Assembly (NCBI GenBank): GCA_021604005.1
Contig: BQIV01000018.1
Location: 1 to 64,000 of the forward strand
Direction of reading: 5' to 3'
DNA from: Nitrospirales bacterium
Lineage (GTDB): Bacteria; Nitrospirota; Nitrospiria; Nitrospirales; UBA8639
DNA length: 64,000 nucleotides
Below are positions 2,286 through 57,609 of this stretch, one piece after another (within the stretch, counting starts at the first letter, position 1; every line of letters begins with the position of its first letter). The translations under genes and the position numbers were made by a program. Below the pieces are notes generated by a model. That model made no database searches and had not been told where the DNA came from. It saw only the letters and a list, made by a program, of their open reading frames with translations.

Positions 2286-3233
2286 TCAAGGAAAGTCGTA
2301 CCCAAAATATCGATTCAGTGAGCCACCGATTCGTGCTATCACATTCAGATCGTTATCCGGCAACTTTTCCTTCCATGCTAAATCTTCTTTGACCACACCT
2401 GAACTTTGCCTTCGCATCTTATTTCCCATGATATGATGTTCAACTGTATAAAAATCTTTTGGGAGAGAAGCTGGCTTTAATCCCATAAGATCCGTAATCC
2501 GATCTACACTTCCTTGCGGGTCAGCACATAAATCAGAGTATCTCAGGCGCAACCACCGATCAGGTGAAACTAACTTTTTCGCCAGATCAGCCTTTGAATT
2601 AATTCTTCGCCAATAACGTGCAGCCCAAGCTACATCCTTACCTGTGTGCTTCATCGTACTTACAACGCTAGCCCTTATATCTTTCACCAAATGGACGACC
2701 TTTAGATCGATTTGCTCTATGTCCTTCAAAAACTTTATACGCCTTGAATCCTTCAAGGCATCTACAAAGGCTGTTTTGTTCTGGATCATCATTGCGGCTT
2801 GTGCGACATGCACCACCCGTTGACTAATTTCCTCAATCTCTTGCTTGTATCCCGGATACAAGTAGGGTACGAGTCTGTCCCTTATTAGTTCTAGAGAATT
2901 GTTCCCTAAAGAACGCACCAACAGCACATTCAACAAATGCGAATCACTCAATCGGAAACGAGTCTTCCAGGATTTGTCTATGTTAAATGTGCTTCCTAAT
3001 TTTTTTACTTGTTTTTCGAGTTCTAGAAAAAATGGACACTCGGTCATAACTTGACCACAGGAACAACGGTACTTTTTCGGCTTAAATCTTTCTACTGGAC
3101 CCGCTTCCCCAATCGTCATAATTTCTGGGTGGGAATTTAGAAGAAAACACAGTAAGGTGGATCCAGAGTAACCTTGTCCTGTAATGTATAAATAAGGAAT
3201 TTTTGATTGTGAAGACGACATACTATTCGTCAT
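2286..3233 (-). CDS. Sulfotransferase family protein
   Basis: This 315-residue protein is of the PAPS-dependent sulfotransferase type. The N-terminal strand-loop YITGQGYSGSTLLCFLLNSHPEI (about residues 15-37) is the 5'-phosphosulfate-binding loop. The central block LKVVHLVKDIRASVVSTMK fits the 3'-phosphate-binding region. Four Cys (CSCGQVMTEC, about residues 57-66) may form a structural site and also occur in related bacterial enzymes. The start is well supported by AAGGAGG nine bases upstream of ATG 3233. It probably sulfates a glycan or small molecule. The substrate cannot be told from sequence, but an exopolysaccharide-type beta-barrel gene lies next on the same strand. Confidence 0.75.
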   Translation of the reverse strand: MTNSMSSSQSKIPYLYITGQGYSGSTLLCFLLNSHPEIMTIGEAGPVERFKPKKYRCSCGQVMTECPFFLELEKQVKKLGSTFNIDKSWKTRFRLSDSHLLNVLLVRSLGNNSLELIRDRLVPYLYPGYKQEIEEISQRVVHVAQAAMMIQNKTAFVDALKDSRRIKFLKDIEQIDLKVVHLVKDIRASVVSTMKHTGKDVAWAARYWRRINSKADLAKKLVSPDRWLRLRYSDLCADPQGSVDRITDLMGLKPASLPKDFYTVEHHIMGNKMRRQSSGVVKEDLAWKEKLPDNDLNVIARIGGSLNRYFGYDFP

Positions 3234-3679
3234 TCTACTTATACCTCCTTCTGTGGGCCACTCTTCTTAAGCTAAGAATCTTTAGGAATAGAAAGATAAG
3301 GAAATCGATATTCAAAACGATAGAACATCATTTAGTTCAATAGATTCTGCTTATGTTCCATACACGACCTTCGAGATAACTGTCTCGCCACTATGAAAAT
3401 ATAGACAGAAAGATAAAAGATAGTAAAGTGCAAAAAGGAACATCCCGCTAGCACAGCCTAAGATTTCGGATTTACTCAAGAAATAGAGTCTTGCGAGATA
3501 TTACGGCAGTGGTGCATAGTGACCCATCTATAATGAACTCCAGTTCCTCAAGGCACTGAAAGAATCGGTCATCATATACCTATCACCAACTCACAACAGA
3601 ACACTCTCTCTACCCAACAGTCTGCTTGTCGGCAAGGCTTACAAGATGGTCTTTGTACATCTACAATTACACTTCAATA
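3234..3679. other. Gene-free AT-rich spacer
   Basis: There is no frame with family resemblance. A short stretch near 3520-3560 vaguely resembles transposase coding sequence but is too short to call. Confidence 0.4.
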
Positions 3680-19166: not shown

Positions 19167-19652
19167 CTATTTACTGAGGGACGAATCGATAGCTTGCTCA
19201 AACGTTGGGGTTGCTAACGTTGTTGCCTCATGTTCATGCGTGTGGCAACCAAGGCAATGACACAGACGACGATTCCAAAATCCTGCAAATGCGATAAGCG
19301 ATGCTCCTAACACATCAAGGGCAATCTCTCCAAAGCTGCTTGGCACCATCCAGACATGTGCAGCGACGAGCAAGGAAAGGCCGAGTGCGGTCATATACGC
19401 CGGACGAATATCGCGATGTAAGGGATAAGTGGCCAGCAGGCCAAACCCTGCGAGGATCCCAATGATACCGACAAAAAACCATTCGGTGGTTTCGGCTAAA
19501 AACCCGCCAAGAAGCACGTCCAACCCGCCCCATGAATGCGCAGCAATGACCGGAAGTGCGAGCAGGGCTAAGGGAGTGAGTGCGCAATGAACGGCACACA
19601 CCAATGATGCGATTGATCCGGCTTTTGAAAGTTTGGGGCCGAGAGTTTTCAT
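19167..19652 (-). CDS. MerC-domain membrane protein
   Basis: This protein has 161 residues from ATG 19652 and about four hydrophobic segments. It starts with the MerC pair CAVHCALTPLALLALP (two Cys with a His between) and ends in a soluble Cys/His cluster, CHCLGCHTHEHE, suited to metal binding. The ATG lies four bases after the stop of the Fur-family gene, so the two form an operon and share the palindromic operator at 20100. Metal transport or buffering is likely. The metal (Zn, Hg, Co or other) is not determined by sequence. Confidence 0.75.
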   Translation of the reverse strand: MKTLGPKLSKAGSIASLVCAVHCALTPLALLALPVIAAHSWGGLDVLLGGFLAETTEWFFVGIIGILAGFGLLATYPLHRDIRPAYMTALGLSLLVAAHVWMVPSSFGEIALDVLGASLIAFAGFWNRRLCHCLGCHTHEHEATTLATPTFEQAIDSSLSK

Positions 19653-19656
19653 AGGA

Positions 19657-20076
19657 TTATTGACATTTTGGACAGAGACCGCTGAATTCCAGTGTATGTT
19701 CATTCACGATAAATTGAGTTTCTTTTTCAATAAATGCTGTGAGTTTTTTTAGGGGGCATAATAATAAATCTGCAATGCGACCACACACTTGGCAACGAAT
19801 ATGATGATGGTGCTCACGTCCATGACGAATCTCAAAACGGGCTTGACCTTCTTTGTGAAGCTCAATTTGCGCCACGACTCCAAGGTCACGCAACACGGTT
19901 AGGGTCCGATACACAGTCACTAAATCGATTGACACCTTGTTCTTTTGCAAGCGTTCATAGAGCTCAGAGGCACTCAGTGGGTACTTTGTTCGTTCAAGAA
20001 CCCCTAAGACCGCCCGACGGGTTCGAGTAAGCCGATGCCCGGCAGCTCGCAAATCCTCATCAATGGTAGACTTCAT
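19657..20076 (-). CDS. Fur-family metalloregulator (Zur-like)
   Basis: This protein has 139 residues. A winged helix (TRTRRAVLGVLERTKYPLSASELYERLQ, then VTVYRTLTVLRDLGVV) is followed by the dimerisation domain with the His-rich EHHHHIRCQVCG and the C-terminal CPKC. The two CxxC pairs would hold the structural zinc. The same palindrome (TTGCAA-N5-TTGCAA) lies 24 bases before its start codon and in front of the zinc-uptake genes 4-12 kb away. This suggests autoregulation and a Zur-type role. The co-operonic gene encodes a MerC-like protein. PerR- or Fur-type specificity is not excluded. Confidence 0.85.
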   Translation of the reverse strand: MKSTIDEDLRAAGHRLTRTRRAVLGVLERTKYPLSASELYERLQKNKVSIDLVTVYRTLTVLRDLGVVAQIELHKEGQARFEIRHGREHHHHIRCQVCGRIADLLLCPLKKLTAFIEKETQFIVNEHTLEFSGLCPKCQ

Positions 20077-20099
20077 ATGTCTGACACCTCAATACCTAA

Positions 20100-20116
20100 T
20101 TGCAAATCTCTTGCAA
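20100..20116. promoter_or_regulatory. Fur-family operator (autoregulatory site)
   Basis: The site TTGCAAATCTCTTGCAA has two TTGCAA half-sites. It matches three other sites in the window (24767, 29331, 32034) and overlaps the expected promoter of the Fur-family gene. Confidence 0.7.
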
Positions 20117-20253
20117 TTATAAACATTTCACCATGAATGTCAAGTGAGTCGACAGACCATTGGCAGATGACATGTCTCGTACAACAGTAGCAAACGAGAC
20201 ATGGCCTATTGCCGCTAGAAGGATGGGGGAGAACCGACTGCGAGGGAAGTCCG

Positions 20254-21018
20254 TCAGGCACGCTCTCGAGAGAGAGGTCTTACCCGGCAGGCCAGAGCAA
20301 CACCCTCACGGTAGCGAAGCCATAAGCGTAATGATTTCTTGATAGCGACAAGAACCGCATCCTGCCTTGCCCTGGTTGTGGCATGTGTCACCACCATATT
20401 ATAGGCATCGTGTCGATGTCCGTTTTCGACCATTTGATGTGCTCGTGTTAAATCCATCGCGTCAGGCGAGACCCCATGATGACAGACTAACGGATGTTGC
20501 CGAACGATTGCTTCAAGACGTTTTCGCGTCATTGGAACCGTCGATGCCTGAAGTTCCTGTCGGTCGTGCTTGCTCCCCTCGACAAAGATCGTCAACACCG
20601 CCGCACCGACAACCCAGTCTTGATGAACGGAAACTCGGTCCAGCCAAAGCCGGTAATGACGGCTAGCCGGAAGTAAGGTGATGTGTGTAAATGCCTTTGC
20701 GGGATACCGTAATCCCTTCATCATTTTGAGAAACAATTCAGGATGTGACCGCCCCAATGATAATCGACCTGTATCTTCTTCGTAGATGTTTTCAGCCAGC
20801 ATCGCACGTACATCTGCTGGAGGGTTTTGCCCATAAATCCTTGCAAGAAAAACAGGAAAATCCCGCACATAGACACCAAATTCTTGCTGATAATGTAGTT
20901 TCAGTTTCGATTTGGCAATGGCAGGTCCAGAAAAAATGGACCAAGCCCAATGATGCTTTTGATCCATGAGGCTTAACAATTGATTGCGGAATTGTGTGCG
21001 AGAAAGACGTGTACTCAT
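20254..21018 (-). CDS. PqqC/TenA-like haem-oxygenase-fold protein, metal site apparently complete
   Basis: This all-helical protein of 254 residues belongs to the PqqC/TenA/CADD superfamily, which includes haem-oxygenase-like diiron oxidases. A carboxylate-x9-His (D82 and H92, in YEEDTGRLSLGRSH), E147 (in FVEGS) and an H194-x3-E198-x2-H201 triad resemble the Glu-His-Glu-His-Asp-His ligand order of diiron members, with Glu replacing Asp. It is paralogous to 56866-57609, which lacks the last two His. The reaction is unknown. Oxygen-dependent chemistry on a small molecule is a family-based guess. Confidence 0.7.
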   Translation of the reverse strand: MSTRLSRTQFRNQLLSLMDQKHHWAWSIFSGPAIAKSKLKLHYQQEFGVYVRDFPVFLARIYGQNPPADVRAMLAENIYEEDTGRLSLGRSHPELFLKMMKGLRYPAKAFTHITLLPASRHYRLWLDRVSVHQDWVVGAAVLTIFVEGSKHDRQELQASTVPMTRKRLEAIVRQHPLVCHHGVSPDAMDLTRAHQMVENGHRHDAYNMVVTHATTRARQDAVLVAIKKSLRLWLRYREGVALACRVRPLSRERA

Positions 21019-21325: not shown

Positions 21326-22111
21326 CTAACGAGGGGATTCTACGCGTAAAGCGCTTTCTCTCGGCGACTGGACAGAGGATGGAAAGGGTTTGGCCTTGGC
21401 AGATTTTGAAGAACGTGGCTTGACTTTTTTCGTTACCGCCTTCTCGGGTCTTCCGGTTTTGGACTCAATAGATTCGAGCTCTTTACCCAGATGCAACAGG
21501 ACCTGTTGCTGTGAGACGGCTAAGGCTTTTAATTCACTAATTTGTGAATTGACTCGGGTGAATTCTTTTCGTTGAGCCGTCAGTTGATCGCGAAGCGCAT
21601 GCACTTCCCCCAGTAACTCGTCATGTTCTAACGTAGCCATAGATGATACGGGTTGTGATTCAATCGTAGCAGGAACAATCCGGGACTGCGACTTTGATGT
21701 GGCGTTCTTCTTTTGTGAATAGATTTTCCAAATTTTTTCGCTAATGTTATCTGAACGTTCTCGAGCGTTTTGTGCCAATCGAACAAGCAAATTTATACTC
21801 GCGCCCACCCCGTTTTTGCCAAGTCTTATGACACCGGTGACCACAGAAGCCAGACCGTTACCTACACACCGGCATCCACGCCCACACAGTGCAAAACCTG
21901 CCTGAATCCATCCAAGCAGTTGCTTGCCTGCACCTCGGACCGCATCAAGCATTGTCGCAAACAATTGCACACCGGCAGACGGCGCTTCATCTCCAACCTG
22001 AATTCTCAAAGACTGCGCAGGATCGTACGGTAGTTTTGGCTTGGACTTCTCACCGTCTGAAGGCAGTATATGAATGAGGTTGAGTGGAGTTTCCGTTGTT
22101 TTCCAGCCCAT
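21326..22111 (-). CDS. Hypothetical protein with amphipathic helices and coiled coil
   Basis: This protein has 261 residues. The N-terminal 70 residues are hydrophilic. A Gly/Ala/Val-rich amphipathic stretch follows (about 55-115: MLDAVRGAGKQLLGWIQAGFALCGRGCRCVGNGLASVV). A coiled coil of about 45 residues (LLGEVHALRDQLTAQRKEFTRVNSQISELKAL) leads into a Lys/Ser/Pro-rich tail. The pattern recalls polyhydroxyalkanoate-granule or other surface-associating proteins, but there is no family signature and no phaC or phaP neighbour. I do not recognise it. Confidence 0.55.
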   Translation of the reverse strand: MGWKTTETPLNLIHILPSDGEKSKPKLPYDPAQSLRIQVGDEAPSAGVQLFATMLDAVRGAGKQLLGWIQAGFALCGRGCRCVGNGLASVVTGVIRLGKNGVGASINLLVRLAQNARERSDNISEKIWKIYSQKKNATSKSQSRIVPATIESQPVSSMATLEHDELLGEVHALRDQLTAQRKEFTRVNSQISELKALAVSQQQVLLHLGKELESIESKTGRPEKAVTKKVKPRSSKSAKAKPFPSSVQSPRESALRVESPR

Positions 22112-22584: not shown

Positions 22585-22896
22585 ATGCAACGTCTTCATG
22601 AAACACTACGTCAACGAATCATGCAATTACTTCAAGACAATCAGCGATCATCGCATGAACTGGCAATATTGATTGACCGCTCAGCGAGAGACGTAGAACA
22701 TCACCTTGCCCATGTGAAGAGAAGTCTTGATAGCGATCAACAGAACCAATTCACCGTCTCTCCCGTTCGGTATCAACATTGTGGGTTCGTTTTTCGGGGA
22801 CGGAAACGATTGACCTGTCCCAGTCGTTGCCCAACCTGCAAAGGAGAACACATCTCCCCTCCTCGATTCCGGATTATCAGCAAAACTGCCGGTTGA
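22585..22896 (+). CDS. HTH plus Zn-ribbon transcriptional regulator (COG3357-like)
   Basis: This protein has 103 residues. The N-terminal winged-helix-like part (HETLRQRIMQLLQDNQRSSHELAILIDRSARDVEHHLAHV) joins a C-terminal zinc ribbon (CGFVFRGRKRLTCPSRCPTCKGEHI). This is the arrangement of the predicted regulators grouped as COG3357. It sits directly upstream of a zinc-island lipoprotein gene on the same strand with a 66-base gap, so it may sense metal or regulate the first lipoprotein. No target is known. Confidence 0.7.
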   Translation: MQRLHETLRQRIMQLLQDNQRSSHELAILIDRSARDVEHHLAHVKRSLDSDQQNQFTVSPVRYQHCGFVFRGRKRLTCPSRCPTCKGEHISPPRFRIISKTAG

Positions 22897-22962: not shown

Positions 22963-23790
22963 ATGTTTTCTTTTGGTATGCGCAGTATAGTGTGTGGAAT
23001 GTTCGTCACATTGTCGGCGTGCGTGTCTGTTCCACAGATCGAGACTTCCATCCTTGAAAGCCCTCAGGGTCATGTGACGCTTAAGACCTTTTCCGATTCG
23101 TCCATTCACGCTTCTCATCCCTCATTCCTTGGCGCTCCTCTTCTACAAAAGGCACTTCAAGGACTTCACGTTTTGGAAGATAAAGCCTTATTGGCGACAT
23201 TGGTCAGCGGTGAAGGACAGGAGTTGCCGGTTCTGACTGATCAAGAGCTACAGTTTCTTATCCCGTGGCTGAGTGAGGCGTTTGCTCAAGCGACACCTGA
23301 AGAATATGTCTGGTTCCAACTCACAAACACCAATGCCACGGTCCCACACGAGACGAGTGGGAGTCTGTATTTCTTTCAGAACCTGTTACGGGTAACATTA
23401 CATACATTTCAAGCCGATCGTCGTCAAAACAAGCTATCATCAAAAGCCAGTTTCTCCCCGACACACATACGACATTGGACGTTGACGTATTCTCCAGCTA
23501 CGGCCCAACAACAGACCGATACCAGCCCAGAAACGTATCCCCAAGATGCAATCGGCTCTGTTGCCATTGATGTAACGACCTTGCCAACCACTAAACCACT
23601 ATCAAAGACTGAACCCAAAACCGTAATGCCATTGCAAAGAGAAATCATTGGGCAAGATGCCGAGGTACAGGAGACTCGACAATTGCGGAAAGAAATTGAA
23701 GAACTGCAAGAACAGGTCGACGAGCAGAATAGAACACTCAAACAATTACACGATCGGTTCAAACAACAGATGCCGTCACCAGAAGAATAA
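22963..23790 (+). CDS. Metal-island lipoprotein, family unknown (copy 1)
   Basis: This protein has 275 residues. A signal peptide is followed by a lipobox (VTLSAC), then a body of about 160 residues (IETSILESPQGHVTLKTFSDSSIHASHP through LYFFQNLLRVTLHTFQ). A linker and a C-terminal coiled coil (RQLRKEIEELQEQVDEQNRTLKQLHDRF) complete it. It is clearly paralogous to 25298-26122, with the same order and many identical blocks (AFAQAT/ALAQAT, QVETTI/QIETSI). It converges on an ABC permease gene 15 bases away. It is probably an outer-membrane or periplasmic lipoprotein working with metal uptake. I know no family for it. Confidence 0.75.
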   Translation: MFSFGMRSIVCGMFVTLSACVSVPQIETSILESPQGHVTLKTFSDSSIHASHPSFLGAPLLQKALQGLHVLEDKALLATLVSGEGQELPVLTDQELQFLIPWLSEAFAQATPEEYVWFQLTNTNATVPHETSGSLYFFQNLLRVTLHTFQADRRQNKLSSKASFSPTHIRHWTLTYSPATAQQQTDTSPETYPQDAIGSVAIDVTTLPTTKPLSKTEPKTVMPLQREIIGQDAEVQETRQLRKEIEELQEQVDEQNRTLKQLHDRFKQQMPSPEE

Positions 23791-23805
23791 TAGGAGTACA
23801 CATGG

Positions 23806-24648
23806 TTAAGAATGCACGTGTTTCGGCCCCAGACATTTCTTGACACACCATTGTCCCACACTCACAATCCTGAACAAGACCCCACCGACCACCACATCAG
23901 TTGGACCAGTCGGCCAATCAAGCTGGTACAACACGAGAAATCCTGAAAATTCCATTAACAAGCCAATGAAGGCAGCCACAATGGGCACTATCCAAATTCC
24001 AGTTTGCACGTGCATCGCAATCATAGGAGGAAGCAATAAAAATCCAAACGTCACCAATGGGCCGACGACGAGCACTCCCAAGGAAATCGTGACTCCAACG
24101 ATTCCATAGAGCAAACAATCCCAAACCCACACGAGTTTCCCAAGCGAGATTGCTAAGTCGCGATCGACGGAAACCAGCAGTAACTCTTTTCGAAAACACC
24201 ACAAGAGTGCCATCATCACGCTAAAACAGACAGCCAACAACCCTAAGTCGGCATCGGAAATGGCAATAATCTGACCATTCAATACAGACAACGCACCAAC
24301 TTCTGGAATCCGGTCTGACGCTAGAAGCAAGATCGTCAGCGCACCGGCTAAGACATAGAGTATGCCAATGCGACCTTCGACCATGCCGTGACCTTGCCGC
24401 TCCAACATGGCTATGAGCAGTAATGTGCCAGTTGTCAAAATCGTCGAACCAACGAGTCCAAGTCCGAAATCATTGTGAGGAATTTGCGAATGAAAGGTCG
24501 CATGCAAAAAAATAGCCATGGCAATTCCCGCGGCGGACAGCGTTGGTAAGGTAACACCGAGAAACCCCATCCGACGAACATACATCAGTTCGCCTACAAC
24601 TGGCAGCACCATCCGACTCAAGACTCCTCCATACAGCGCACTTCTCAA
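23806..24648 (-). CDS. Orphan ABC-3 family metal permease (second ZnuB)
   Basis: This permease of 280 residues has 7-9 hydrophobic segments. It is clearly paralogous to znuB at 26160 (VLPVVGELMYVRRMGFLGVTLPTLSAAGIA; SVDRDLAISLGKLVWVWDCLLYGIVGVTISLGVLVVGPLVTFGFLLLP). No ATPase or binding protein accompanies it, so it must use those of the main operon or be a relic. Homology extends upstream of the TTG start at 24648, through IDPSYVL, to an in-frame TAG at 24669-24667. That stop truncates the N-terminal helix relative to its paralog. The palindromic operator at 24767 lies 118 bases upstream. Confidence 0.75.
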   Translation of the reverse strand: MRSALYGGVLSRMVLPVVGELMYVRRMGFLGVTLPTLSAAGIAMAIFLHATFHSQIPHNDFGLGLVGSTILTTGTLLLIAMLERQGHGMVEGRIGILYVLAGALTILLLASDRIPEVGALSVLNGQIIAISDADLGLLAVCFSVMMALLWCFRKELLLVSVDRDLAISLGKLVWVWDCLLYGIVGVTISLGVLVVGPLVTFGFLLLPPMIAMHVQTGIWIVPIVAAFIGLLMEFSGFLVLYQLDWPTGPTDVVVGGVLFRIVSVGQWCVKKCLGPKHVHS

Positions 24649-24766
24649 AACATAGGAAGGGTCAATCTACTCAATGAATGAAAACTTTGGCAGCTGATTG
24701 TCTGTCGTTGGCTACTCCTCCTCTCAGAATTGAACAGTATTCACGTGCTTCAATAACGAAGCTTTA

Positions 24767-24783
24767 TTGCAACTCTCTTGCAG
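24767..24783. promoter_or_regulatory. Fur-family operator between divergent metal genes
   Basis: The site TTGCAACTCTCTTGCAG matches the site before the Fur-family gene at 15 of 17 positions. It lies between the orphan permease (minus strand) and the exported-protein/lipoprotein operon (plus strand) and could control both. Confidence 0.6.
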
Positions 24784-24846
24784 CTACTATACAATGTCCT
24801 CCGTGAGTCCATGACGCCCAATGTTAGGTATAGCAAGCTAAGGATC

Positions 24847-25287
24847 ATGCAAATACCGTTCAAACTATGGAAGCTCTCGGCGATGTTCCTTGTCGAGCTA
24901 TTATTCGTCATAGCATTCGGGAACTTTTCTGTATTTGCATTAGACCTTGGGTATTCTTGCCAAGCTCACCCAAGCGCTGTGTTCGATACCATAAGCCAGA
25001 CGACAAAAGAAATGAAAGATTGGCGGTCGATCAGGAAAGTGAGCCACGAGTACACGATTAAGGCGGTCGTGCGGAACTGGCGAAATGCGGCGGTCCCTAT
25101 CTGGGTTACTGTACGACTGTCACCCACTGGTGAGCATCAGAGCAATAGCGAAATGCACATACTCTGGGAACAATCAATGGAACCGCTGAATTACCCTGAC
25201 ATGTATACCTTCCTCAACATCTTTCAGCTCCGCCAGCAAGATGCTGACCTGCATTGCGTATGGATCGGCTCAGACGTGGGGCCTTGA
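24847..25287 (+). CDS. Exported hypothetical protein of the metal island
   Basis: From ATG 24847 this is a protein of 146 residues with a good signal peptide (LWKLSAMFLVELLFVIAFGNFSVFA-LD). The mature part has two Cys far apart (YSC and LHC) and a beta-rich middle (EYTIKAVVRNWRNAAVPIWVTVRLSPTGEH) that reads like a small immunoglobulin-type domain. ATG 24811 and TTG 24778 are alternative starts, the latter inside the operator. It is the first gene of a pair with the lipoprotein at 25298, ten bases away. Function unknown, presumably in metal handling. Confidence 0.55.
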   Translation: MQIPFKLWKLSAMFLVELLFVIAFGNFSVFALDLGYSCQAHPSAVFDTISQTTKEMKDWRSIRKVSHEYTIKAVVRNWRNAAVPIWVTVRLSPTGEHQSNSEMHILWEQSMEPLNYPDMYTFLNIFQLRQQDADLHCVWIGSDVGP

Positions 25288-25297
25288 GGATTCGTCG

Positions 25298-26122
25298 ATG
25301 CGTCAAGGACTCCACATGCTCATTGCCGGTCTCATACTGACTCTCGTGTTCACCGGCTGTTCCGGGTTGCCACAAGTGGAAACCACCATTCACCAAAACG
25401 AACGCGGCATCGTGAGCTTACGGACGTTTGCCGATCCAACGGTTAAAGCCACTCATCCCATGACACTTGAGCCATTCATCTTGGCTCGAGCCTTACGAGG
25501 ATTATACGTAAAAGAAGAAAAAGCGATGCTCGGAGGGCTGATTGACGGGGGAGCCGTGAAGCGTCCGACCTTCACGGATGAACAGATTGTCTTTCTAGCC
25601 CCGTTGCTCTCAACGGCTCTTGCACAAGCCACCGATGAAGAGCAGATCACATTCTCGCTGATTGACTATGTACAGTCAAAGAAGCGCCACACGAAGGGCG
25701 TCTTATATGTTTCCGAACCTGCACTCCACCTTATATTAACTCAGTATCAGGTTTCTGCCGAGAGGCCCACATTACTATCAAGACCGTCGTACTCCTTTAG
25801 CCGTCCTAAACGATGGACGCTTGGATTTTCACCAGATACTGGTCTCCTTGATGAATTCAACGATGTTCCAATAGGAAATAATTCAGATGGAAGAATGTTG
25901 AAGATTGCCTACAACCGTGTACCGAGTCATTCAAACTCATCCTCATCCAACATCAATTCTGAACATTCTGACGAAAAGGTGGCGAACCCAGACGCCTTAG
26001 CACATGAGAATAAGAGTGGGGCAGAACTGAAGACCCTCAAAGAAGAATTGAAAGAACTCCAGAACTCTCTGAGCGAACAGAATAGAAAGCTTGACCGATT
26101 GGAAAAACGAGTGAATCCGTAG
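25298..26122 (+). CDS. Metal-island lipoprotein, family unknown (copy 2)
   Basis: This protein has 274 residues from ATG 25298, with GAGG eight bases upstream. A signal peptide and lipobox (LVFTGC) precede the same body as copy 1 (PQVETTIHQNERGIVSLRTFADPTVKATHP, then LARALRGLYVKEEKAML and LSTALAQATDEE). A Ser/Asn-rich linker and a coiled coil (LKEELKELQNSLSEQNRKLDRLEKRV) follow. It lies downstream of the exported-protein gene under the operator at 24767 and converges on znuB 37 bases away. It probably faces the periplasm or outer membrane. Confidence 0.75.
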   Translation: MRQGLHMLIAGLILTLVFTGCSGLPQVETTIHQNERGIVSLRTFADPTVKATHPMTLEPFILARALRGLYVKEEKAMLGGLIDGGAVKRPTFTDEQIVFLAPLLSTALAQATDEEQITFSLIDYVQSKKRHTKGVLYVSEPALHLILTQYQVSAERPTLLSRPSYSFSRPKRWTLGFSPDTGLLDEFNDVPIGNNSDGRMLKIAYNRVPSHSNSSSSNINSEHSDEKVANPDALAHENKSGAELKTLKEELKELQNSLSEQNRKLDRLEKRVNP

Positions 26123-26159: not shown

Positions 26160-27032
26160 TTACGCTTGAGCGGTTTTCTTCGTGAGCATCCATCGCACAA
26201 CAGTAATCATTGCCAGAATGATGTAAGCCACGAGCGCGTCAGTCGCGCTCGTGGGCCAATCAAGGAAGTACGAGACGACAAATCCCGTAAACGCAATAAT
26301 GACACCGAGCAGTGCGGCAATGATAGGCATCGCTGAAAATCGCTTTGCCATCCGTTCCGCAGTCATCACTGGGAGGAGAAGGAAGGCAAATGTGAGGAGC
26401 GGGCCGACCATCAGGACCCCTAACGAAATCGCAAAACCCACAGAACCATACAACACTAAGTCCCAGACCCACATTTGCTTTCCCAACGACAGCGCCATAT
26501 CACGATCGACAGAAACCAGCAGGAGTTCACGGCGAAACAAACATAACAGCATGACAATCAGACTGTAACTCGCAAGAAGTATCACCATGTCACTATCAGA
26601 AATCGCAATGATTTGTCCTTGTAGAAGCTTTGTGATCCCGACTTCCGGCACACGCTCTGAAGCCAGTAAAAGAACGGTGATCGCACCTGCGAGAATATAC
26701 ACCACTCCGATTCTTCCCTCCACGAGACTTCGACTGTTCCGCTCTATCATCGCTAAGAGGAACAGCGTTCCAGTTGTCACAATGGTTGATCCGATCAACG
26801 CAAGGAGAAAGTCGCTATGCACCGGATCTTGCTGATGAAGCGTTAAGTGCCAAAATACGGCCGCGGCGATTCCACAGGTCGACAACTGCGGCAACGCCAC
26901 GCCCAGAAAGACCATCCGTCTCGCGTACATCAAGACTCCCACAAGCGGCAGCACCAAACCTGTCAACATCCCACCATAGAGGGCATTGCGTAACACATAC
27001 GATGGATGCAAGATCTCTAGAAGCTCACTCAT
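26160..27032 (-). CDS. znuB: Zinc/manganese ABC transporter permease
   Basis: This integral membrane protein of 290 residues belongs to the ABC-3 family. The typical VLPLVGVLMYARRMVFLGVALPQLSTCGIA segment is present, as is the cytoplasmic EAA-like stretch before SISLGVLMVGPLLTFAFLLLPVMTAERMA. It overlaps znuC by eight bases (translational coupling), so it is the third gene of the znuA-znuC-znuB operon. A full paralog without ATPase or binding protein lies at 23806. Confidence 0.85.
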   Translation of the reverse strand: MSELLEILHPSYVLRNALYGGMLTGLVLPLVGVLMYARRMVFLGVALPQLSTCGIAAAVFWHLTLHQQDPVHSDFLLALIGSTIVTTGTLFLLAMIERNSRSLVEGRIGVVYILAGAITVLLLASERVPEVGITKLLQGQIIAISDSDMVILLASYSLIVMLLCLFRRELLLVSVDRDMALSLGKQMWVWDLVLYGSVGFAISLGVLMVGPLLTFAFLLLPVMTAERMAKRFSAMPIIAALLGVIIAFTGFVVSYFLDWPTSATDALVAYIILAMITVVRWMLTKKTAQA

Positions 27033-27750
27033 AATTCCCTCTCACAAGACTCCACGCCAATCTTGGGTATGCTTTCATAAACTCATCCACTTTCTGTCGA
27101 ACAAGCCTATGATTCTCGATCAGAATCACCTCCTCGACGACTTTGAGAAGATCAGGAGCAAGGTGATCAGCCCACAATATACTGAGTGTTGACTCAGCAT
27201 TGAGCTTTCTGAACAGGTCGATCATGGCATAGACCGTTTCTTGGTCAAGGCTAGCCAAGGGTTCATCCAACACCAGAATAGCCGGACACGTAACCAGACC
27301 TCGTGCAATCAGTACACGCTGCTGCTGACCACCAGATAGCTCAGAGTAAAATTTATGTCTGAGCGCCATGAGCCCCACTTCTTCGATCGCCCAATGGACT
27401 TTATCGCTTTCCTCTCCTTTACATGACTCCCAAGGTTTCAAACGTCCGTAAGTTCCCATTCGAACGACTTCCGTAACGGTTAGGGGAAGAAGTCCAGTCA
27501 CGGCTGCACGTTGAGGAACATATCCAACAAGAACATTCATGTTGTCGTGCCTCGAATTTCTATCTATCGTTCCACTCAATGGAGGTAGGATACCGGCGAT
27601 GGTCTTAAGTAAGGCCGTCTTTCCGCCTCCATTGGGACCCAAGATCGCGAATGAATCGCCAGGGAAAACGTCGAGCGTGATATTTTGGAGGACGGGATTT
27701 TGCGAGTAACCAATCGTGACTCGGCGAAGACTTAGGTAAGGCGAACTCAT
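27025..27750 (-). CDS. znuC: Zinc/manganese ABC transporter ATPase
   Basis: This ABC ATPase has 241 residues. Walker A GPNGGGKTALLKTI, Q-loop region YVPQRAAVTGLL, signature LSGGQQQRVLIARGL, Walker B AILVLDEPLASLD and a H-loop-like WADH are all in place. It overlaps znuA (ATGA) upstream and znuB downstream. It energises uptake by the permease at 26160 and possibly also by the orphan permease at 23806. Confidence 0.9.
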   Translation of the reverse strand: MSSPYLSLRRVTIGYSQNPVLQNITLDVFPGDSFAILGPNGGGKTALLKTIAGILPPLSGTIDRNSRHDNMNVLVGYVPQRAAVTGLLPLTVTEVVRMGTYGRLKPWESCKGEESDKVHWAIEEVGLMALRHKFYSELSGGQQQRVLIARGLVTCPAILVLDEPLASLDQETVYAMIDLFRKLNAESTLSILWADHLAPDLLKVVEEVILIENHRLVRQKVDEFMKAYPRLAWSLVRGNYE

Positions 27751-28774: not shown

Positions 28775-28900
28775 CTTAAAATAACGCCTGATTATTAGAG
28801 GCAAATAGATTGCTATACTTTAAGTGACTGTATTGTCAGGGAAATGGTTGAAATTCACTCGAACAATATGTGAGATAGTCATATGCACTTCAACGAAATA
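28775..28900 (-). pseudogene. Remnant of the 3' end of a duplicated porin gene
   Basis: The bases just upstream of znuA resemble the end of the intact porin gene (29925-30010). Both share CAATCACGAC(C/T)TCCC near the znuA start, and the block GTTGAAATTC(A/G)CT recurs in the same order. The rest of the porin copy is missing. Confidence 0.55.
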
Positions 28901-28957: not shown

Positions 28958-29287
28958 TCAGGAGGAAGGTGGAGGACGGGGCAACTGAACGGAGAAGCCC
29001 AAGAACGAAGCAACGACGATATTTCGCGCTACGGTATTTTTAAAGGCAGCAAAGGGCAAGCCATCTGCCAAAAGATTTTCAAAGGCAAATAACCCATTCG
29101 CATGCTGCTGAACCCATTGACACAAATCAAACTCAGAGTGTTCATGACCATTATGATCAACCTCAGAAAAAACATGATAAATCTCAAGCACACCATAGAA
29201 GGGAAGCAAGCTGAAAAACAACAGCCCAACCAGGACAGCTATTGAAGGGAATATTTTTTGACCGAAAAAATAATTGAACACCCTCAT
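28958..29287 (-). CDS. DUF2946-like small membrane protein (copy A)
   Basis: This protein has 109 residues. One hydrophobic segment (IFPSIAVLVGLLFFSLLPFYGVLEI) is followed by the metal-suited YHVFSEVDHNGHEHSEFDLCQWVQQH. The conserved H-x3-E-V-D-H-x-G-H-E-H cluster is shared with copy B at 31665. The operator at 29331 sits 44 bases before its start. It would be the first gene of the operon leading into znuA. The likely role is periplasmic metal binding or sensing; the annotated DUF2946 group is uncharacterised. Confidence 0.65.
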   Translation of the reverse strand: MRVFNYFFGQKIFPSIAVLVGLLFFSLLPFYGVLEIYHVFSEVDHNGHEHSEFDLCQWVQQHANGLFAFENLLADGLPFAAFKNTVARNIVVASFLGFSVQLPRPPPSS

Positions 29288-29330
29288 ACGGATCCAACCC
29301 TAGCAAAGAGCTGAGAGAGAGTCAAACACA

Positions 29331-29347
29331 TTGCAAATGACTTGCAA
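29331..29347. promoter_or_regulatory. Fur-family operator A (znu operon)
   Basis: The site TTGCAAATGACTTGCAA lies 44 bases upstream of the DUF2946-like copy A. It differs from operator B (32034) at one position. Confidence 0.7.
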
Positions 29348-29415
29348 AATGCTTGACTGACTGACAAAGGCTTAAACAAAAACGAATGGCAGAGAAGAGA
29401 AGGCCGAGAGCCCGG

Positions 29416-29749: not shown

Positions 29750-29907
29750 ATTCTAAGGCAGCCACCTTGTCCGATAGGTGGCTGCCCTCCCACACCAAAC
29801 ATGGCGAGAATCATATCGACTTTTCTTCGGACTCTCGCCATGTTCACAGTTGAACCGTTCATGCTCAGACTATTGTCTTTCGGTGAATCCATGTTGATGA
29901 CTTCCAA
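29750..29907 (-). pseudogene. Decayed duplicate of the 5' part of znuA
   Basis: Its start region (MEVINMDSPKDNS...STVNMAR) parallels that of znuA (MEVINMALQKNNS...STMNMAR) and diverges after about 45 codons at the join with the tadC remnant. The DNA match runs on into CTCGCCATGTTCA and GATGAC(C/T)TCCAATCACGAC. Confidence 0.75.
29757..29786. terminator. Hairpin at the duplication junction, possible terminator
   Basis: GGCAGCCACC and GGTGGCTGCC form a perfect 10-bp stem with a 10-base loop. It lies downstream of the porin gene on the minus strand and so could end that transcript. The following bases (TTAGAATG) are a poor U-tract. Confidence 0.45.
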
Positions 29908-31664: not shown

Positions 31665-31991
31665 TTAAGAGAGGGGAGGTGCACGCGATCCGCCAACCGA
31701 TATCGTTGGTGAGGTCCATGCGTACTCTACGCTGCTAAGATAGCCGTCTGGAATGTAAAAAGGAGTGGTAACACCAAGCGGATCAATACTCAACGCGCTA
31801 CTAGTATGCTGCTGTACCCATTGACATAAATCAAAATCGGAATGTTCATGACCATCATGATCAACTTCAGCAAAAACATGATGAATCTCAAGAGCACCGG
31901 AGAATGGCAGCAAGCAGAGAAACACCACTCCGAGGAAAATTGAAACCTTCCTCACTAGGTAAGGCCGAAAGCATGATGCAGACGATTTCAT
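31665..31991 (-). CDS. DUF2946-like small membrane protein (copy B)
   Basis: This protein has 108 residues. A hydrophobic segment (VSIFLGVVFLCLLPFSGALEI) is followed by HHVFAEVDHDGHEHSDFDLCQWVQQH, almost the same as copy A (28958). The C-terminal third differs but keeps a PF...APPLS-like end. Operator B lies 43 bases upstream. It probably heads the transcript that includes the porin gene. Seven His/Asp/Glu within 20 residues argue for a periplasmic metal site. Confidence 0.7.
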   Translation of the reverse strand: MKSSASCFRPYLVRKVSIFLGVVFLCLLPFSGALEIHHVFAEVDHDGHEHSDFDLCQWVQQHTSSALSIDPLGVTTPFYIPDGYLSSVEYAWTSPTISVGGSRAPPLS

Positions 31992-32033
31992 AACGAGCGG
32001 AATCTAGCAAAGGCTCAAACTTCTGTCAAGTTA

Positions 32034-32050
32034 TTGCAAATGTCTTGCAA
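32034..32050. promoter_or_regulatory. Fur-family operator B (porin transcript)
   Basis: The site TTGCAAATGTCTTGCAA lies 43 bases before copy B of the DUF2946-like gene, at almost the same distance as operator A from copy A. Confidence 0.7.
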
Positions 32051-32135
32051 AAGTGGAAAGTGGCCGTGGTCTCGGGTTTGAGAAAATGTGATGTGAGGAA
32101 TAATCAGAGAGGAGAGTATACCGGAACCGCAGGCC

Positions 32136-56865: not shown

Positions 56866-57609
56866 ATGCGTACTCTTTCCCCTGATCAATTCCGTGAGAA
56901 ATTATTTGACGTGTTGCGCCGTAAGCAGCATTGGGCTTCTTCATATTTCGATGGCAACACCATTACCAAGGCTCATCTTCATCAACTCTATCATCAAGAA
57001 TACGTTGTGTATATCCGTGACTTTGCCGTTTTACTTGCGCGTATTTTGGGGAAAAATCCACCATGGGAAGTTCGGCGACGATTGGCCTCTACCATTTACG
57101 AGGAAGAGACGGGCGGCCTATCATTTCAACAACCGCATCAAGAGCTTTTTTTACAAATGATGATCGGGTTGGGATTTGATCGGTCAGGATTCCGTGACGT
57201 CAAACTTCTTTCAAGCAGCAGAATCTACCGAGAATGGCTGGATCACGTCTGCGAAGATGAAGACTGGCTTGTAGGTGCCACCGTGTTAACGGTCTTTGTC
57301 GAAGGTACGTCTATGGACCCCGATGATGTCATGTATCCGAAGGGGCCAAAATCACCGGCAGAGATCGAGGACATCATCATGAAACATCCCTTAGTCCAAT
57401 ACCAAGGCCTTTCTCCTAAGCATATGGACTATATACGCGTCCAACAAATTGTTGAACCGGTCAATCGCCGCGCGATATACGACATGATCATTCATCACAC
57501 CGTCGAAGCAGAACAACAACAAACGGTTTTACAGCAAATGGATGAAGCCTTACGTCAATGGTCCCGATATCAAGACGGCATTGCACGATCCTGCGGATTA
57601 CGTCAGTAG
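56866..57609 (+). CDS. PqqC/TenA-like haem-oxygenase-fold protein, metal ligands lost
   Basis: This protein has 247 residues and is clearly paralogous to 20254-21018 along its whole length. The first carboxylate-x9-His (E81 and H91, in YEEETGGLSFQQPH) and E146 (FVEGT) are kept. The Hx3Ex2H triad of the other copy reads Q193-x3-E197-x2-N200. If the fold is a diiron enzyme, this copy should have lost one or both metal ions and may be non-enzymatic or changed in reaction. A C-terminal helix with Gln repeats (VEAEQQQTVLQQM) follows. Confidence 0.7.
   Translation: MRTLSPDQFREKLFDVLRRKQHWASSYFDGNTITKAHLHQLYHQEYVVYIRDFAVLLARILGKNPPWEVRRRLASTIYEEETGGLSFQQPHQELFLQMMIGLGFDRSGFRDVKLLSSSRIYREWLDHVCEDEDWLVGATVLTVFVEGTSMDPDDVMYPKGPKSPAEIEDIIMKHPLVQYQGLSPKHMDYIRVQQIVEPVNRRAIYDMIIHHTVEAEQQQTVLQQMDEALRQWSRYQDGIARSCGLRQ

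Follow-up and report, generated by a model that had tools for sequence, protein, structure and literature searches.

The first 64,000 nt of contig BQIV01000018.1 from a Nitrospirales bacterium (assembly GCA_021604005.1; positions 1–64,000, forward strand), hereafter the window, encode two related lipoproteins (LP), LP1 and LP2, at a zinc-uptake locus. Members of their family recur beside porins and ATP-binding cassette (ABC) importers for several substrates, in gene orders and at branches of the family tree that are described below. With moderate confidence, these lipoproteins are taken to be lineage-restricted accessories, anchored in the outer membrane and facing the periplasm, of substrate-specific porins that work with binding proteins and ABC importers. 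The two genes and the permease genes that they face are:

22963..23790, + strand: LP1, open reading frame (ORF) for an A-type lipoprotein, convergent with permA, in a clade with the lipoproteins of loci L039, L041, L042 and L043
25298..26122, + strand (likely start 25298 within ORF 25241–26122): LP2, B-type lipoprotein, convergent with permB; structure modelled
23806..24648, − strand: permA, ABC-3 zinc-type permease (PF00950), A type, without an ATPase or ZnuA gene of its own adjoining
26160..27032, − strand: permB, ABC-3 zinc-type permease (PF00950), B type

LP1 and LP2 are paralogs (31% identity over 270 residues, E 3e-42). A signal segment and a lipobox, LSAC in LP1 and FTGC in LP2, can be read directly in both. 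The first-pass annotation of this DNA had described two lipoproteins with a lipobox, a shared body and a C-terminal coiled coil, converging on ABC metal permeases. All of this is borne out: besides the identity between the two proteins, residues 237–272 of LP2 are predicted to form one helix and the weak database matches are coiled coils, and the genes end 15 bp (LP1) and 37 bp (LP2) from their PF00950 permease genes, both pairs being convergent. permA and permB are the sole ABC-3 permeases in the 4.7-Mb genome, which encodes three further members of the LP family, one of them weak.

Association with porins and import modules

The genomic neighbourhood of the family was examined in 15 genomes, with 82 LP members and 65 Pfam porin hits (Porin_O_P/BBP2). 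An LP gene lies within 3 kb of 26 of the 65 porins, about 37-fold more than the 0.71 expected from uniform placement, a figure calculated from reported coordinates and genome sizes rather than by full permutation. Seven kinds of porin neighbourhood were found. On the LP tree, six of these seven classes each fall in a separate clade, and at least six changes are needed to explain the porin label.

Several loci (L145–L155) were chosen for porin proximity and illustrate the arrangements without measuring their frequency; the families of the binding proteins and ATPases are the basis on which substrates (zinc, phosphate, molybdate-type, urea) are assigned here and throughout. Co-directional genes for a porin, a binding protein and an LP are found in L089, L146 and L148, the last two genes overlapping by 4 bp, and the order binding protein–LP–porin in L089, L145, L147 and L148. 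An ABC permease gene comes after LP and porin in L145, L147 and L148 (PF00528 confirmed in L145), and L147 also has an ATPase that, like ModC, carries a TOBE domain. In L149, the genes for a porin, a binding protein, an LP, PstS, PstC, PstA and PstB follow one another on one strand, while PstCAB and a porin are convergent with the LP in L037, L153, L154 and L155. The binding proteins of the modules belong to SBP_bac_11 (ModA type) or PBP_like_2 (PstS type); one of the Peripla_BP_5 family (urea/amide type) is encoded about 0.5–0.6 kb from the LPs of L059 and L095. The initial guess that the lipoproteins are partners of a porin is strengthened by the porin counts and the co-directional modules.

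Family identity and distribution

Profile searches with LP1 and LP2 gave nothing above the curated cut-offs in Pfam-A or NCBIfam, and the sub-threshold matches were mostly to coiled coils, as were all the weak sequence matches in the PDB. No match to zinc-binding periplasmic proteins of the ZnuA/ZinT/AdcA type was obtained for either protein in Pfam and NCBIfam at E values up to 1. SusD was not matched by any of 18 family members, whose recognised neighbours are porins and ABC importers, and literature searches returned no paper with a title or abstract describing such a lipoprotein. The family is thus unnamed in the libraries searched, as the first reading had supposed.

Relatives are present in 57 of the 59 genomes of the order Nitrospirales. 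The family was found in 108 of 295 genomes drawn from the phylum; those listed all belong to the order, together with ten of 15 genomes from other orders of the same class, which have a single copy each. Outside that class, no genome of the phylum draw matched at E 1e-5. Scans of named genomes gave only metagenome-assembled genomes (MAGs) of Nitrospirota type, labelled Nitrospira, Nitrospirae, Nitrospiraceae and, in two cases, Nitrospinota (labels that may be wrong), and tblastn found no relative on plasmids. Homologs next to znu genes in other phyla, which had been proposed as a check, were not found in these scans, profile searches having been confined to Nitrospirota. As far as seen, the LP family is restricted to one class of this phylum. 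A short subfamily (L036, L068, L091, L098), present in several genera, is encoded directly downstream of a cyclophilin-like peptidyl-prolyl isomerase (PPIase) gene, as judged by eye, with no Pfam porin nearby.

Predicted structure and conserved residues

AlphaFold2 models were built from nine sequences, LP1, LP2 and seven relatives. The LP2 model has a confident body (approximately residues 28–152), a single C-terminal helix (237–272) and linkers of low confidence; the body modelled alone reached a mean pLDDT of 79.5 and a pTM of 0.77. Taken as a whole, a predicted LP has a lipid anchor, an α/β body of about 180 residues, a linker and a C-terminal helix that likely forms a coiled coil. Fold searches of the PDB and BFVD returned nothing with E below 0.001 (best Foldseek E 0.29, best VIA Z 3.0), which is not proof of a new fold.

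The invariant columns in an alignment of 18 sequences are M1, C21, H53, P54, G68 and P102, with E114 and E115 also invariant among the seven zinc-locus members. Potential metal ligands that are invariant, apart from the lipid-bearing cysteine, amount to H53 in the 18 members and to H53, E114 and E115 in the seven, and no cluster of metal ligands is apparent in the alignments. With so few invariant ligands, the metal-capture role that had been suggested is not favoured. An aspartate at position +2 was found in none of the 56 members with a recognised lipobox. Its absence fits sorting to the outer membrane under the enterobacterial rule, which may not hold in Nitrospirota.

The zinc locus

The other genes of the locus that bear on its function are:

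27025..27750, − strand: ZnuC-like ABC ATPase (ORF), between ZnuA and permB, nearest to that of L040
27747..28763, − strand: ZnuA, periplasmic zinc-type binding protein (PF01297, 7e-47), 73% identical to that of L040
29870..31597, − strand: zinc-locus porin (PF07642, BBP2, 9.6e-5, below cut-off), placed before ZnuA also in relatives
24847..25287, + strand: small exported-looking ORF directly upstream of LP2
19657..20076, − strand: Fur-family regulator (PF01475), probably Zur, with an operator in front
22585..22896, + strand: helix-turn-helix and zinc-ribbon (PF0610-like) protein upstream of LP1 (PF21476, PF23470)

An ABC-3 permease is encoded in only nine of the 48 genomes of the taxonomic family to which the window belongs, and all nine carry an LP of the zinc clade. 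The LP gene is convergent with the permease gene in the window (twice) and in L039, L040, L042, L043, L115 and L116. The two genes lie on separate contig ends in genome G004 (L041, L117) and about 2.5 kb apart in L044. The zinc-locus LPs are monophyletic in the tree (support 99/98) and comprise an A type (LP1, L039, L041, L042, L043) and a B type, in which LP2 groups with L040, L044, L115 and L116 (support 94/82). The permeases follow the same division, permA being 78% identical to the permease of L039 and permB 72% identical to that of L040. A cation efflux gene stands beside the LP in L115 and L116. The link between LP and the zinc locus is real.

It does not extend to the whole family. Porin–ZnuA–ATPase–permease operons with an s108-like ORF (see below) and no neighbouring LP are found in L142, L143 and L144, outside the taxonomic family of the window, and such operons indicate that LP is not obligatory for zinc uptake. 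Linkage to znu as a family-wide trait was rejected, most members being elsewhere. Three genomes of f3 Nitrospira (L138–L140) have a different ZnuABC at 2.5–5.6 kb from an LP gene; a link of this LP to its own znuABC was also rejected, as the LP follows atpC at that distance from znu and is missing from the atpC site of genome G058. Of the first-pass proposal that the lipoproteins are a new component of zinc uptake, the existence of a zinc clade that accompanies every ABC-3 permease in the taxonomic family stands, and the scope of the proposal proves too narrow, with members mostly at other loci and znuABC operons that lack an LP.

Some further genes of the locus are shared with relatives. The Fur-family gene recurs in the zinc loci L039, L042, L043 and L044, and adjoins the LP on L041; an ORF for a MerC-family membrane protein (19167–19703) overlaps its end, and the pair is kept in the zinc loci of relatives. 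The PF0610-like gene at 22585–22896 is kept in L043 and partly in L039 and L041. A 261-residue ORF (21326–22111) without a Pfam match is kept beside the LP1 counterpart in L039, L041, L042 and L043 (44–67% identity). Two related, exported-looking ORFs of 108 and 109 residues (31665–31991 and 28958–29287, minus strand), which share a conserved HEH-containing segment and have no Pfam match above cut-off, head the porin and ZnuA operons; their relatives head similar operons elsewhere. The small ORF at 24847..25287 has no Pfam match, nor a homolog in the other loci compared.

Operators

The palindrome TTGCAA-N5-TTGCAA (TTGCAANNNNNTTGCAA) has exactly three exact copies in the 4.7-Mb genome, at 20100, 29331 and 32034, all in the zinc locus. 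A fourth site, ATTGCAACTCTCTTGCAGC, differs by one mismatch in the core:

20099..20117: exact operator, in front of the Fur-family gene
29330..29348: exact operator, upstream of the 109-residue ORF and ZnuA–ATPase–permB
32033..32051: exact operator, upstream of the 108-residue ORF and the porin
24766..24784 (palindrome copy at 24767): Zur-type operator with one core mismatch, between permA and the small ORF/LP2

In relatives, this motif is likewise found ahead of the corresponding genes. Among about 943 kb from other loci, one site matched with a single mismatch and none matched exactly. The Fur-family protein is probably a Zur. According to the review PMC6103462, Zur boxes vary from lineage to lineage and tend to be presented as palindromes. 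The Fur-type operator that the first-pass annotation placed, with a small exported protein, before LP2 is a genuine site. The promoter that it serves is ambiguous, as the site lies between the divergent permA and small ORF/LP2 and may act on either. LP2 is plausibly a member of the zinc regulon. Control of LP1 by a zinc operator was set aside, as no such site was found for it. In L115 (genome G330), an exact operator at 3454 lies upstream of a series s108–cation efflux–LP on one strand. The s108-like ORF and the gene for the cation efflux family protein that precede this LP occupy 2350–3408.

History of the locus

Sequence comparison revealed two relics of importer genes:

28779..28877, − strand: relic of a porin C-terminus with an in-frame stop
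29794..29907, − strand: relic of a ZnuA N-terminus

The 108- and 109-residue ORFs share a stretch with 85% DNA identity over 122 bases, and the porin–ZnuA junctions are 72% identical over 194 bases. The porin, ZnuA and ATPase genes are single; both permease–LP pairs are kept. We infer from these comparisons that the locus arose from two operons, A and B, that were merged or tandemly duplicated and then lost complementary genes.

The zinc clade groups with an LP clade found at a haem-oxygenase site (support 94/84), which is compatible with an origin from that clade. In other genera of the taxonomic family, an LP gene lies between a Haem_oxygenas_2 gene and an exonuclease/NUDIX/MutY cluster; at the haem-oxygenase site of the window (56866–57609) there is no LP. 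The window has two Haem_oxygenas_2 (PqqC/TenA-like) paralogs that are 45% identical, at 56866–57609 and 20254–21018, the second near LP1.

Proposed role and alternatives

Passage of a substrate from porin to binding protein is usually treated as free diffusion. In the proposed mechanism, every import module would have its own LP, LP1 and LP2 being the zinc versions, and the LP would most likely assist the handover of the substrate from the porin to the binding protein, either as a dock that holds the binding protein beneath the pore or as a factor that stabilises or gates the pore. That LPs recur with different porin families and importers speaks for a common outer-membrane function in substrate entry, and module-specific LP clades speak for the role of a partner. 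As LPs stand beside zinc, phosphate and molybdate-type importers, they are probably general uptake helpers and not a zinc-specific part. A lipid anchor, the absence of aspartate at +2, a folded body and a helix would suit a periplasmic adaptor. The data themselves show the association with porins and importers, its recurrence across the family tree, the gene orders and the operators; outer-membrane location, physical contact with the partners and docking or gating are inferred.

Several observations weigh against this proposal. Only 27 of the 82 members in the 15 genomes lie within 6 kb of a Pfam porin, and orthologous loci are not independent, so that the Poisson value for the enrichment overstates its significance. 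Large LP clades are found elsewhere, at the haem-oxygenase/exonuclease site, downstream of the PPIase-like gene and after atpC, and no porin neighbour was identified for the single-copy members from sister orders. At zinc loci and at most of the phosphate loci, the LP gene converges on the operon and is not part of it. The predicted structure offers no clue to function.

It is unlikely, although less so than the other alternatives, that LPs are general envelope lipoproteins, concerned with porin assembly or with the spacing between outer membrane and wall, whose linkage to porins would reflect the biogenesis of outer-membrane proteins. The many members without an importer nearby, a weak BamE-like gene near the haem-oxygenase context and a coiled-coil tail that would suit a spacer are all in keeping with such a function. 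However, LP clades differ with the substrate module, and several modules have the LP gene placed between those for the binding protein and other importer components, which suggests a module-specific partner. A dedicated zinc role, with LPs binding or delivering zinc between porin and ZnuA, is improbable. The presence of an LP in every ABC-3-bearing genome of the taxonomic family, the operators before the small ORF/LP2 and before the s108–cation efflux–LP series of L115, and the cation efflux gene adjoining the LP in L115 and L116 point to zinc. On the other side, most of the family lies away from zinc loci, with members in phosphate and molybdate-type modules; comparable porin–znuABC operons from other families of Nitrospirales carry no LP beside them; few potential metal ligands are invariant; and LP1 lacks a zinc operator. 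Neutral hitchhiking, by which LP genes would settle at convergent gene ends with no role in the neighbouring transport, would explain the convergence at permA, permB and a number of unrelated neighbours, among them the exonuclease cluster, but is likewise improbable given the co-directional, overlapping arrangements in several genera, the porin enrichment, and the retention of two permease–LP pairs in a duplicated locus whose remaining importer genes survive as one copy or as relics.

The porin-accessory role thus remains the preferred one. A more specific version of it, which is put forward tentatively and may well not hold, is that LPs form an undescribed family of lipoprotein adaptors that couple pore to periplasmic binding protein, one for each module of diffusion porin, binding protein and ABC importer, as a SusD-like counterpart for porins. 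The family would add an uncharacterised component of nutrient acquisition to Nitrospira-type nitrifiers, in which many genes are unannotated. The occurrence of the family in zinc, phosphate and molybdate-type modules makes the channelling or docking hypothesis directly testable.

Comparison with known systems

MspD of Mycobacterium smegmatis is a Zur-controlled pore for the passage of zinc that works with ZnuABC (PMC13098993). The locus of the window resembles this system as a dedicated zinc pore with ZnuABC under probable Zur control; it differs in that MspD is the pore itself, with no lipoprotein partner in the abstract of that paper, and LPs are not pores. LP1 and LP2 stand at a znu locus and probably serve ZnuABC, but the LP family has no homology to ZnuABC components and is missing beside other znu operons of the order.

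Large and mostly helical, the surface lipoprotein SusD partners TonB-dependent receptors such as SusC. In contrast, LPs are small, with a predicted α/β body and a helical tail, have no Pfam match except to coiled coils, and are encoded beside porins and ABC importers; they are thus set apart from SusD by sequence and neighbours. The likeness lies in the arrangement: the gene for the lipoprotein adjoins that of a particular outer-membrane transporter, which LPs are proposed to help, with one partner for each substrate system.

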